A DNA stretch of 35,240 nt, from NCBI GenBank assembly GCA_035939775.1, contig DASZFO010000269.1, positions 1 to 35,240 of the forward strand, read 5' to 3'. Both the position numbers and the translations under genes were made by a program. Positions 27,406 to 35,071 of the stretch are shown piece after piece. Source of the DNA: Pirellulales bacterium (GTDB taxonomy: Bacteria; Planctomycetota; Planctomycetia; Pirellulales; DATAWG01). Under the pieces are notes generated by a model. That model was given only the letters and a program-made list of their open reading frames with translations, ran no database searches and was not told the origin of the DNA. Every line of letters starts with the position of its first letter. Position 1 is the first letter of the stretch.

Positions 27406-28701
27406 TCACTCGCCGCGGAGCCGGTTGCCGATCGCGCGGACGATGACTAGCAGCGGGCCCATCAGAAGCAGGCAGATGGCGAGCGTGACCGGGATTAGCC
27501 AACCCAGGGCGAAGAGTGGCTCGGTCTTTTCCCAAATCTCGGCCCAGCGAACGATTGTCACGAGCGCGGCGAGACAGAGGAATGGCCCGTAGCGGATTTC
27601 CGGATCGCGGCGCGAGAGCCATTGCGAGATGCCGATGGCGACCGCGCCAAATGGCGCCAGGAAGAAGATGACCAGGCAGGGCTGCCAGCCGAGAAACGCG
27701 CCGATCATGGCCGTCAGCGTCACATCGCCAAATCCCATCGCCTCGCGGCCGAGGATTGCGCTGGCCACGATTCTCACGACCCAGGTCAAGCCGCCGCCGA
27801 TCGCCATTCCCACGAGCGCCGTCAGCAATCCCTGCCAATGCGCGCCACCGAGATGATGGTGGACGAACACCAGGGCGAGCGTTCCCAGCGCGCCCAGGAT
27901 CACGAGCCACTTGGTCACCGGATCGCGCACCAGCCGCGCCCAAAACAGCCGAATTGCGACTCGCCAACCCCGGCGCAGGCGCAAAACACGCGTCATCAAG
28001 CCAAAGCACCAGATCCACAGGCATCCGATCCCGAGCGCCAACGATAGTCCGCTGCCCCAATTCCAGTCCGCGCGATCAGCGAAGGTAAGGAAGCTCAACC
28101 GCGGGTTGGCCAGGCCCAGGCCGTTCGGCCCACGAGCGAATTCAACGACCGGCAAGAGCGATTGCGGCGCGGCCGCCGCCAGCAGCAAACCGATCAGCGT
28201 GCCCGGAATCGTAATGCCGTCGGGGATCGTCTTCTCGTCCAAATCGATAAACGAAGCCACGATCATGAAGGCCAGCAGGCAGACGTGAGCGCAAAACTCG
28301 ATGTGGACTGTAATGAGCGCCGCGCGCGCTAGGCCCTGATTCCCAGGCAGGTCGAGAAACTGGCGGAATTGGTCCGGCAGCAACCCTCGCACGCCGACCT
28401 CCCACCAATAGAGCGCCGCGACGAGCGCCCCGGTGAGCAGTTCCAGCACCAGCGGTCGGACCCAAAAGCCGTCGCCATGGAGCGCCGCTTCGCGCCGCAG
28501 TCCGAACCAGCCGACCACCGGCAGACGGTCGGTGATCCGCCGCGGCGGCGCGGCCGGCAAGGCCGCTGACCAAGGGCTAATCGAGCGCAACTGGTACGCC
28601 AGCCGATAGATGCCCAGATTGAGGAAGCCGCCGAGCCAAATGCCCAATAGGAATAGAACCGCAAGCCGGACGATCAGAGGCGTTTCGAGGATCCAGTTCA
28701 C
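27406..28701 (-). CDS. Prepilin peptidase / A24 family, planctomycete type
   Basis: A 431-residue membrane aspartic protease that trims type IV pilin-like or type II secretion prepilins, and may N-methylate them. The catalytic aspartates are D153 in ASFIDLDEKTIPD and D326 in AMGFGDVTLTAMIGAFLGW. The N-terminal domain (LGGFLNLGIYRLAYQLRSISPWS... VVGWFGLRREAALHGDGFWVRP) keeps the shape of the GspO/PilD cytoplasmic loop but lacks its four zinc cysteines. The protein is longer than the usual 250-290 residues because of an insert (about 180-290) between the two active sites. It starts at a GTG whose GTGA overlaps the aroK stop, so translation is coupled. Confidence 0.88.
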   Translation of the reverse strand: MNWILETPLIVRLAVLFLLGIWLGGFLNLGIYRLAYQLRSISPWSAALPAAPPRRITDRLPVVGWFGLRREAALHGDGFWVRPLVLELLTGALVAALYWWEVGVRGLLPDQFRQFLDLPGNQGLARAALITVHIEFCAHVCLLAFMIVASFIDLDEKTIPDGITIPGTLIGLLLAAAAPQSLLPVVEFARGPNGLGLANPRLSFLTFADRADWNWGSGLSLALGIGCLWIWCFGLMTRVLRLRRGWRVAIRLFWARLVRDPVTKWLVILGALGTLALVFVHHHLGGAHWQGLLTALVGMAIGGGLTWVVRIVASAILGREAMGFGDVTLTAMIGAFLGWQPCLVIFFLAPFGAVAIGISQWLSRRDPEIRYGPFLCLAALVTIVRWAEIWEKTEPLFALGWLIPVTLAICLLLMGPLLVIVRAIGNRLRGE

Positions 28702-29324
28702 GTCGCGGATTGAGTCAAAGGGAGCCTCGTGAGAATCTCGGTTGTCACTTCGGCGGCGGTCTTATTTTCCGTGTCGATTTCGATATCGCGGCACTGGCGG
28801 TAGAGCGGCATCCGCTCGGCCAGCAGATGGCGAATTTCGGATAGACCGCCGGCAATCAGATTGGGGCGGCGGGCGTTGGTCGAGGCGTCGGATTCGAGGC
28901 GACGGGCGATCGTTTCAGGATCGGCGGTGAGCCAGATGATCGTGGTCCGAGAAAAGGGGTCGGGAGCCTTTTCTCGTGCTATCTCGTCCATATCGCGTCG
29001 TTCTGAAAAGGTCCCCGACCCCTTTTCTCGCGCGGGGCGAAGCAATGCTCGGTTCTCGGGCCGCAATACGACGCCTCCGCCGAGCGCGAGCACCGTGCGA
29101 TCGCGGCCGATCAAGTCGCGCAAGTTCGCTGCCTCAAGATCGCGAAAAGCCGGCTCGCCGTCATCGGCAAAGATCGCGGCGATCGACTTACCGGCATGCA
29201 GCTCCAGTTCCACGTCGGCATCGACCCAATCCCACCCCAGCCGCAGCGCAAGCTGCTGAGCGACCGTCGTCTTCCCCGTCCCGCGATAACCGATCAATGC
29301 GATGTTCATCTTCAAACTTGTCAT
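28698..29324 (-). CDS. aroK: Shikimate kinase with an in-frame palindromic repeat insert
   Basis: A 208-residue enzyme that phosphorylates shikimate with ATP. The P-loop is IGYRGTGKTTVAQQL (12-20), the shikimate-binding Asp/Arg motifs are WDWVDADVELE and EPAFRDLEA, and LALGGGVVLRPENRALLR closes the core. The usual GTIIWLTADPETIARRL continues only after 28 extra residues, R99-R126 (REKGSGTFSERRDMDEIAREKAP...). These are encoded by the paired-hairpin repeat at 28948-29030. Without them the protein has the normal family length of about 175-180. The insert lies where family members differ in length, so activity may persist. An internal ATG (29309) gives MNIALIGYRG and may be the real start. Confidence 0.93.
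   Translation of the reverse strand: MTSLKMNIALIGYRGTGKTTVAQQLALRLGWDWVDADVELELHAGKSIAAIFADDGEPAFRDLEAANLRDLIGRDRTVLALGGGVVLRPENRALLRPAREKGSGTFSERRDMDEIAREKAPDPFSRTTIIWLTADPETIARRLESDASTNARRPNLIAGGLSEIRHLLAERMPLYRQCRDIEIDTENKTAAEVTTEILTRLPLTQSAT
28948..29030. repeat. REPIN-like paired hairpin inside aroK
   Basis: The outer arms (28948-28964 and 29014-29030) are 17 perfectly paired bases starting CGAGAAAAGGGGTCGGG. Each end is itself a small imperfect hairpin, GAAAAGG...CCTTTTC. The two inverted units are separated by about 31 bases. A half unit of the same family is at 34355-34380. The element is read in frame within aroK. Confidence 0.85.
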
Positions 29325-29441: not shown

Positions 29442-30929
29442 TCACACCTTGGCCGCGCCGATCGCGCGCTTGAGCACGTCGCGCATCAATTCCCACGGCG
29501 CGTCTTGCCCGGTGAACAGCTTGAATTGCAGGCTGGCCTGTCGAACGAACATTTCGACGCCGGTCACGACAAGGCAACTTTGGCTCCGCGCGTCTTTGAT
29601 TAACAGCGTGTTCTCCGGATTGTAGACCATGTCGAACACGACCATCGACGGCCGCAGATGGTGCTTCTCGAACGGGGTCTCGTCGAGGAACGGGTGCATT
29701 CCAATCGGCGTACAGTTGATCAAGACATCGGGCGATACCGAATAGCGAGAATCCCAGTCGATCGCGCTGCATCCTAGTTGTTCGGAGAGTTGCTCGGCGC
29801 GAGAACTCGTGCGGCTGGCGACCACCACCTTCGCATTCCGGCGTTCGAGGCCATAGACCATCGCTCGGGCCGAGCCGCCTGCCCCGAGCACCAGGACGGT
29901 CTTGCCGTCGATCGGGCCGCGGTCGTAGGCCGGCGGCTGCATCGCCCGCTCGAGGCTGTCCATCGCGGCGCGAAAATCGGTGTTGTAACCGGTGAGCGAT
30001 TGTCCCTCGAAGACGACCGTGTTAGCCGCGCCGATCCCCTTCACGGCCGGATCGACCTTAGTCAGTCTGCGGATCACGGCTTCCTTGTGCGGGATAGTCA
30101 CGCTCAAGCCGCGAATGCCTAACTCGTCGGCCTCGCTCAGAAATTGATCCAAATTCTGGGCCGGCACGCGAAACGGCACATAGACGGCATTCAGCCCAGC
30201 CTGGCGAAAGGCGGCATTGTGGACCGGCGGACTGAGGCTGTGCCCGACCGGATCGGCGACGACGCCATAGACCACCGTCGAGCTGTCGATCTCGTCGTAG
30301 TGATAGCTCTCGGTCATCAGTTGAAAGCTGAGTTGGCCGGGGGCGAGCACGCGCTCTTGATGAAACGTGGCATACGTCCACGGAGAGCCGAATTGGCCGC
30401 AGAGCAACCGCGACGGGGTGCCCATATCTCCCATGCAGAAGCCGACCGTGGGCAACTTGCTCTCGCGCACCAACCGCAACATGCGGAGATTGTCGTGCGG
30501 CTGGTTGGCGAGCGTGGCCAGCTTGACGACATCCGGATCGTGGCTAGCCAACTGCGCGTGGATCGCCGAGAGTTCGTCGGGCGTCTTGCGGAAGTTGTGG
30601 TAGCTGATGACCCGCTTGGTCTTGCCGAATCGTGGGATCGACGCGGCGATGTCCTCCTCCAGATCGATGTAATCGACCCCCTCGGCAATCGCCGTGCGCA
30701 GCAACATGAGCCGTTTCTGCTCGTTGCCCGCCCACTTGCCGCCGTCCGCCTCGCGCCGGCAAGCAATCATCACGGGGCCGGGGCGCTCGTTCAGAAGCCG
30801 CTTGAGGTTGACATCGCCCGCGATCCAATCCAATCGCAGCTCGACGAGTTTCGCTCCCTTTTCGACCAAATGACGATGCTCGGCAATCACGTGCCGGTGC
30901 CGACTGCGACCGATACTGACACAGATCAT
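29442..30929 (-). CDS. aroDE: Bifunctional 3-dehydroquinate dehydratase / shikimate dehydrogenase
   Basis: A 495-residue fusion catalysing the third and fourth steps of the shikimate pathway. Residues 1-215 are a type I dehydroquinate dehydratase: VELRLDWI, the catalytic H111 in ISYHNFRKT and the Schiff-base K136 in VVKLATLAN. Residues 218-495 are an NADP-type shikimate dehydrogenase: GVVADPVGHSLSPPVHNAAF, SVTIPHKE with K282, NTVVFEGQSLTGYNTDF with D318, and the dinucleotide loop GAGGSARAMVYG (349-360). The AroD-AroE order is the same as in plants and several planctomycetes. The start is the ATG at 30927-30929. Direct channelling between the halves is possible but not shown. Confidence 0.96.
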   Translation of the reverse strand: MICVSIGRSRHRHVIAEHRHLVEKGAKLVELRLDWIAGDVNLKRLLNERPGPVMIACRREADGGKWAGNEQKRLMLLRTAIAEGVDYIDLEEDIAASIPRFGKTKRVISYHNFRKTPDELSAIHAQLASHDPDVVKLATLANQPHDNLRMLRLVRESKLPTVGFCMGDMGTPSRLLCGQFGSPWTYATFHQERVLAPGQLSFQLMTESYHYDEIDSSTVVYGVVADPVGHSLSPPVHNAAFRQAGLNAVYVPFRVPAQNLDQFLSEADELGIRGLSVTIPHKEAVIRRLTKVDPAVKGIGAANTVVFEGQSLTGYNTDFRAAMDSLERAMQPPAYDRGPIDGKTVLVLGAGGSARAMVYGLERRNAKVVVASRTSSRAEQLSEQLGCSAIDWDSRYSVSPDVLINCTPIGMHPFLDETPFEKHHLRPSMVVFDMVYNPENTLLIKDARSQSCLVVTGVEMFVRQASLQFKLFTGQDAPWELMRDVLKRAIGAAKV

Positions 30930-34156: not shown

Positions 34157-35071
34157 ATGTGGTGTAAAAACTGTCGCCAAGATGTGCCGGCGGTCGCCTC
34201 CGAGAAGGGTGGGGCGTCTCGCTGCGTGCGCTGTCGCGGCGAAATCGGTTCGAGCGAATTCACTCCGCCCAATCGGCATCTCAGCGGCGTCCGCCAAACT
34301 GCGGATTATGGATTGCAATTAGACGAGCCAACAGGGCCACGCGAGGAAGGCCAAGAAAAGGTTCCTGACACTTTTTTTTCCTCTGGATCGAGCGACGACT
34401 TGGACGATTGGACGCTGAACGCCGAATTGCAGCGAATCCGCCGGCGCTTCGATACTCCGCTGGCGGGCGATGCATCGACCGCCGCGATCGGAACGCCGCA
34501 TCTCGATCATTCCGCGCTCCATGGGTATGCGCCGAGCTTCGACGACCGGCTAAGCGACCATTCGCGAATGCGATCGACTCCGAATATTCCGTCGCATGCG
34601 ACGGGGCGAAATGCCGGGCGGCGCCGGCCTCCGACCTCTGACCTCCGAACTCTGACTTCAGCCCGCCGCCGCTCATCGCGGCTGGCATGGGGCGCGCTCT
34701 CGCTTGGGCTGATGGCCTTCGTCTGCGGCGCGGTCCTGCTGGGATGGTCGCTCGCCGCTGGACGCAATGACCTGTGGAGCCTCGGCATGCCGATCACGCT
34801 CGGCGGGCAATTTGGCCTGCTGTTGGGCCTGATCTTGCAACTGGAAAGTTTATGGGAGGGGAACCGGCACACCGTCGATAAGCTCGATGAAGTTGACGGG
34901 CGGCTCGAAGATCTCAATCAGACGGCCGCGCTCTTGTCCTCAAGCCACAGTTCGCCGGCGCAAGCCTTCTACGTCCACATGGCGGGCGGCGCGAGCCCGC
35001 ATCTGTTGCTGGCCGACCTGAAAGGCCAACTCGATCTCCTGGCCGTCCAAATGGCCTCGACGCGGCGATAA
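34157..35071 (+). CDS. Zinc-ribbon membrane protein with coiled coil; linker contains repeat-derived segments
   Basis: A 304-residue protein. MWCKNCRQDVPAVAS and RCVRCRGEIG form an N-terminal zinc ribbon. A long disordered linker (about 35-200) follows. Two membrane helices (WGALSLGLMAFVCGAVLLGWS and MPITLGGQFGLLLGLILQLESL) and a C-terminal coiled coil (RHTVDKLDEVDGRLEDLNQ...) complete it. Two linker pieces come from dispersed repeats: GQEKVPDTFFSS from the GAAAAGG-type unit (34355-34380), and RRPPTSDLRTLTSA from the CCTCCGACCTC-type unit (34627-34662). I chose the ATG at 34157, which places the zinc ribbon at the very start. Function is unknown. It is convergent with the gene at 35079, 7 bases apart. 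Confidence 0.75.
   Translation: MWCKNCRQDVPAVASEKGGASRCVRCRGEIGSSEFTPPNRHLSGVRQTADYGLQLDEPTGPREEGQEKVPDTFFSSGSSDDLDDWTLNAELQRIRRRFDTPLAGDASTAAIGTPHLDHSALHGYAPSFDDRLSDHSRMRSTPNIPSHATGRNAGRRRPPTSDLRTLTSARRRSSRLAWGALSLGLMAFVCGAVLLGWSLAAGRNDLWSLGMPITLGGQFGLLLGLILQLESLWEGNRHTVDKLDEVDGRLEDLNQTAALLSSSHSSPAQAFYVHMAGGASPHLLLADLKGQLDLLAVQMASTRR
34355..34380. repeat. Single GAAAAGG-type hairpin unit in a coding linker
   Basis: GAAAAGGTTCCTGAC followed by ACTTTTTTTTC matches one half of the aroK element. It is read as EKVPDTFFS, the same phase as EKAPDPFSR in aroK. Confidence 0.65.
34627..34662. repeat. CCTCCGACCTC-type short repeat in a coding linker
   Basis: Near copies of CTCCGACCTCTGA and CTCCGAACTCTGA follow each other in the linker of the zinc-ribbon protein. 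The same unit flanks the 53-bp repeats at 1350-1377, 29341-29365, 29424-29437 and 31181-31199. Confidence 0.65.

Follow-up and report, generated by a model that had tools for sequence, protein, structure and literature searches.

The aroK gene in the window (the whole stretch of 35,240 nucleotides analysed here) very probably, at about 0.85, carries a REPIN, that is, a miniature non-autonomous element of the RAYT (Y1/HUH transposase) class that consists of two inverted REP palindromes and is inserted in frame. The gene (28701–29324, minus strand) encodes a shikimate kinase of 208 aa (ORF list; Pfam SKI, 1.6e-39), and the inverted-repeat tract that interrupts it at 28948–29030 is translated as about residues 99–126 (REKGSGTFSERRDMDEIAREKAPDPFSR).

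An inverted pair of REP units inside aroK

The tract is composed of two in-frame GAAAAGG...CCTTTTC units of 23 bp in opposite orientation, located by the repeat search and the unit pattern: unit 1 (GAAAAGGGGTCGGGAGCCTTTTC) lies at 28951–28973 on the plus strand and unit 2 (GAAAAGGGGTCGGGGACCTTTTC on the minus strand) at 29005–29027. The spacer between them (28974–29004) is not common to the other copies in this genome. The repeat search extends the arms to 28948–28973 and 29005–29030 (26 nt, 92% complementary, 31 nt spacing). With up to three mismatches allowed, the unit pattern matches five times in the window against 0.04 expected, a number that none of the shuffles reached, and the tract forms a more stable hairpin than its shuffles (z = -5.3 as RNA and -6.7 as DNA), the mRNA hairpin being predicted at -45 kcal/mol. 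The REPIN-like doublet described by the first-pass annotation is therefore borne out. Rfam matches to mir-H7, MIR1507 and isrG fell far under the gathering scores and were set aside as reflecting a generic hairpin. Neither REP end of the aroK copy has the GTAG tetranucleotide of the GTAG REP superfamily, and the element ends have no CGTC tag of the Rickettsia palindromic element type (RPE-4/RPE-6). Elsewhere in the window, a single REP unit of the AAAAGGTGTCAGGAACC / TGTCAGGAACC subtype was found by the unit pattern at 34355–34377 (minus strand), inside a plus-strand open frame of 362 codons for which no Pfam match was obtained; there the unit would be read as ...QEKVPDTFFSS....

The segment is absent from the aroK genes of relatives. 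The genomes nearest to this one are planctomycetes, and in the 72 other planctomycete genomes with an aroK match (76 searched) the 28 extra codons are missing. The matches split at about residues 97 and 126 of the AroK query, with the target halves adjacent or a few codons apart (0 nt in genome G001), and in an alignment with seven relatives the 28 columns are empty except for one relative in which a few loop columns are filled. No conservation of the insert across species was seen. The first-pass annotation had equated an 83-base element with exactly 28 codons; the 83-nt tract and the 28 codons stand, but the insertion amounts to a net 84 nt, and its ends in aroK are not exact, because the adjacent turn varies by a few residues among relatives. 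At the DNA level these relatives are too distant for a target-site duplication to be read at aroK.

The reading frame of aroK is open across the palindromic tract to its normal end (ORF list). AroK residues 14–201 align to positions 1–158 of the SKI profile, which is the full profile, indicating ~30 surplus residues in AroK. By-eye reading identified the P-loop GYRGTGKT and the DAD, FR, GGG, RRPNL and RMPLYR motifs on the two sides of the insert, so the earlier statement that both flanking halves keep the catalytic motifs holds. When AroK was aligned by sequence with solved shikimate kinases, the break came directly behind the helix downstream of the GGG motif, ahead of the following beta strand; we take the surface turn between these two elements to be the place of the insert in the shikimate kinase fold. 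A structure predicted from the single sequence had a mean pLDDT of 38 and was set aside. A search with the AroK protein detected no second aroK in the genome, a draft assembly of 384 contigs with 96% completeness. Next to aroK lies a fusion of aroD and aroE (type I dehydroquinase and shikimate dehydrogenase; window 29442–30929), which belong to the same pathway.

Copies in this genome and in other planctomycetes

As the first-pass annotation had anticipated, the palindrome has further copies in the genome; neither of the two observations named there as refuting, a segment shared by all relatives or a palindrome with no other copies, was made. There are about ten further paired copies (nine exact pairs plus diverged ones) and few single units, so that the family is dispersed mainly as doublets. 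About half of the copies lie within genes. Six of them, aroK included, are in frame, and the five other hosts, whose families were confirmed by Pfam, are a kdsB-like CTP transferase, homoserine dehydrogenase (hom), a poly(A)-polymerase/CCA-family gene, the linker of a REC-Hpt histidine kinase and a DUF1614 membrane protein. The kdsB, hom and DUF1614 inserts are absent in relatives. The corresponding loop of the poly(A)-polymerase/CCA-family gene differs among relatives, one of which (G001) carries an unrelated insert at that place. About five copies lie outside recognised genes and are apparently intergenic; two copies were placed in the rplL-rpoB and rpsD-rpoA gaps by by-eye reading of their flanks. 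A match in KdpD proved to be native sequence with no insertion.

GTCGGG ends are found in each of the six in-gene copies, and the four intact copies without a recognised gene carry a CAGG-type core, with GTCAGG at one end or at both. This split, noticed post hoc, has a chance of 1 in 210 (calculated by hand) and may reflect two subfamilies. The six in-gene copies also end in one reading frame (PDPF; PDSF in hom), for which chance is about 1 in 240, likewise post hoc. Other repeats are present in the same genome: a separate perfect palindrome, AAAAGGGGACTGTCCCCTTTT, occurs with its variants at roughly 25–30 places (e.g. G000:C169:28639 and C373:16872), and the poly(A)-polymerase/CCA-family gene (L221, G000:C110) additionally contains KYEVRSTKYE...LPLPKGEG, which resembles another translated repeat.

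The paired pattern is present in 35 of 396 genomes of the order and, among named genomes, in many Planctomycetota and some other phyla. Of 158 distinct elements, 54 are situated in long open frames. A single Pfam domain spans the insert in PheS (L073), an SNF2 helicase (L090) and a PAD_porph agmatine deiminase-type enzyme (L135), and for phosphoglucomutase (L065), a hydantoinase (L099) and a B12-binding/MeaB protein (L122) Pfam places the insert in a linker or between two domains; the pgm insert of G001 is missing in relatives. RlmN (L093) and Mfd (L070) also carry a copy, which in Mfd occupies a loop that differs in length by several residues among relatives. The net gains of kdsB (+23 residues), hom (+26) and Mfd (about +13 to +19) are smaller than a full unit, suggesting that target bases may be lost at insertion or trimmed later. 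When 150 codons on each side were considered, 20 elements were in frame and open and 15 were shifted, a count blurred by spurious ORFs in GC-rich DNA, and the excess of in-frame over shifted elements across all loci is only suggestive.

The REP core occurs in inverted orientation on both sides of Y1 transposase genes in nine genomes (G016, G024, G036, G159, G173, G236, G302, G363 and G376), in several of which the variable part next to the Y1 gene also matches the REPINs of that genome. At one locus (L283, G016:C4), the RAYT gene lies between two complete REPINs. These flanks of RAYT-type (Y1) genes mark the element as a probable REPIN of the RAYT/TIRYT class, of the sort in which the repeats beside the transposase have a GGGG(T)CAG-type core. 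The aroK copy itself has two inverted REP palindromes forming a hairpin, and the family core GGGGTCAG fits the GGGGWSAS motif, from which the aroK copy (GGGGTCGG) differs by a single base. The draft of this genome yielded no cognate RAYT: its four Y1 genes have flanks of another kind, or no flanking repeat was detected. One of its own RAYT-type genes (L032, G000:C88) has a repeat of a different REP family (AAAAGGGGACATTCTAC / AAAAGGGGACATTCTACTTT) on either side, the two copies being inverted. The link to a RAYT-type transposase proposed by the first-pass annotation is thus shown for the family, through its relatives, but not for this genome.

Insertion and retention of the element

Arm identity is 92% within a copy versus 76% between copies, so that the stems differ by copy yet stay paired. 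Pairing extends beyond the conserved AAAAGG ends into flanks that are complementary well above chance; once recurrent flanks had been removed, 522 matches over six positions remained, and the shuffles gave 320 at most. At the one clean filled/empty site, in a close genome pair, the net gain is 84 bp including the outer arms, and no target-site duplication is present. Since the outer arms are missing at the empty site, we take them to be a variable outer part of the element, and palindromic target sites were rejected as the main reading. For the genus of G290, the search for empty sites was obscured because the elements there are nested within another repeat, and the siblings of five other genomes were too distant. 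In G290 and G376 (L303–L313), REPINs are centred in another palindromic repeat (GTCGAGCGG/CCGCGGCACC), and at some loci this host repeat, too, is missing from sibling genomes.

A REPIN copy entered aroK at what we take to be the turn between the post-GGG helix and the next beta strand, probably by single-strand hairpin transposition catalysed by a RAYT with many insertion sites. With a net 84 bp and no stop in frame, aroK stayed open and the kinase gained 28 residues, which would be placed in a loop whose length already varies among relatives. At least five more genes of this genome, and many in other planctomycetes, underwent the same kind of insertion independently. Purifying selection would then remove copies that shift the frame, carry a stop or disrupt the core, and in-frame copies would remain in tolerant loops. 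Mobilisation by a RAYT, continued activity of the enzyme and near-neutrality of the aroK insert are what we infer from this pattern. Our best reading is random insertion filtered by frame and loop tolerance, with neutral or mildly costly consequences.

The first-pass annotation had gone further, suggesting a mobile family that can enter genes as protein-compatible units. Such a family would have evolved for tolerance within genes by way of a length of ~84 bp, which is divisible by three, and of GTCGGG ends that contain no stop and encode a short hydrophilic peptide, and its insertion would usually add a harmless loop. We consider this unlikely: many copies elsewhere carry an internal stop or shift the frame relative to the flanking ORFs, and survival after random insertion therefore suffices, with no adaptation of the element needed. 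It is less probable still that the insert has been co-opted, its peptide or its mRNA hairpin altering kinase activity or aroK expression to the benefit of the cell. The strong mRNA hairpin in a biosynthetic gene and the shared terminal frame of the six in-gene copies would fit co-option; the host genes, however, are unrelated, the inserts occupy linkers or length-variable turns, the spacers differ by copy, and the aroK insert was not seen conserved across species. Moreover, Rickettsia guanylate kinase (Gmk) with an RPE is active with a changed substrate affinity, which has been read as neutral to slightly harmful (PMC2229807).

A similarly poor prospect, if anything slightly poorer, is a MITE with long terminal inverted repeats that is mobilised by a DDE transposase. 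One can view the entire unit as such repeats around a variable spacer, but its ends are individually palindromic in many copies, the same ends flank the Y1 genes of nine genomes, and the single clean empty site shows no target duplication. We regard it as very improbable that aroK is becoming a pseudogene through a harmful insert. Although the insert is large relative to a 180-residue enzyme and AroK activity is predicted from sequence, no stop intervenes before the normal end of the gene, the SKI match covers the full profile, the catalytic motifs are intact by eye, and this is the sole aroK found in the genome, next to the aroD-aroE fusion gene. An assembly or binning artefact is hardly credible: repeats can cause misassembly in a 384-contig draft, but the insert lies in frame within a 35 kb contig, the aroK spacer sequence is unique in the genome and five other genes have the same pattern.

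Relation to known intragenic palindromes

REPINs were described as extragenic REP doublets that form hairpins and are associated with RAYT transposases (Bertels and Rainey 2011, PMC3116915). The planctomycete family shares with them the inverted REPs with a spacer, the hairpin, the dispersal and the REPs flanking RAYT genes, here in relatives; it differs in that about half of the copies in this genome are in genes and in that no cognate RAYT was detected there. According to PMC3733652, TIR repeats with the GGGGWSAS motif flank TIRYT transposases. The core GGGGTCAG fits that motif and, like TIRs, the present repeats flank Y1 transposase genes and occur as dimers, whereas the aroK copy (GGGGTCGG) departs from it by one base and the intragenic repeats described in the sections consulted are GTAG and CGTC repeats, not TIR repeats.

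The first-pass annotation had treated coding palindromes as a Rickettsia matter and REPINs elsewhere as mostly intergenic, a view at odds with PMC3733652, in which intragenic REPs and REP dimers encoding 20–30 residues are reported for many species, most of all in Opitutus terrae. The GTAG REP dimers described there, e.g. in Opitutus terrae uvrA, resemble the aroK element in being of the RAYT class, in adding 20–30 residues translated in frame within known proteins and in belonging to the same superphylum; they differ in REP sequence and host genes, and the aroK family is without the GTAG tag. RPEs were found in conserved Rickettsia genes including that of guanylate kinase, and the Gmk enzyme is active (PMC2229807); like the aroK element they are palindromic, in-frame inserts in conserved genes that include a P-loop kinase, but RPEs are 105–146 bp long and unrelated to it in sequence. 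RPE-4 and RPE-6 are CGTC repeats, which according to PMC3733652 are without a dedicated transposase.

Given the published in-frame REP dimers (the Rickettsia RPEs and the GTAG REPs of Opitutus terrae and other species), the kind of event is already known. The open literature, which omits most subscription journals, yielded no description of this family as intragenic. What is new is the planctomycete family itself and how often it occurs in housekeeping enzymes, in a REP class and a phylum different from those of the precedents. Coding palindromes read in frame, known from Rickettsia and a small number of other lineages, are extended by this finding to a planctomycete family that is widespread, has transposases that can be identified and reaches core enzymes such as AroK, the KdsB-like enzyme, homoserine dehydrogenase, PheS and RlmN. 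With in-frame copies in at least five genes besides aroK, the bacterium appears to tolerate insertions in core enzymes much as Rickettsia does. The family thereby offers a natural set of insertions in well-studied folds, with which to ask how often an essential enzyme can acquire a peptide from a mobile element and whether this brings any gain.
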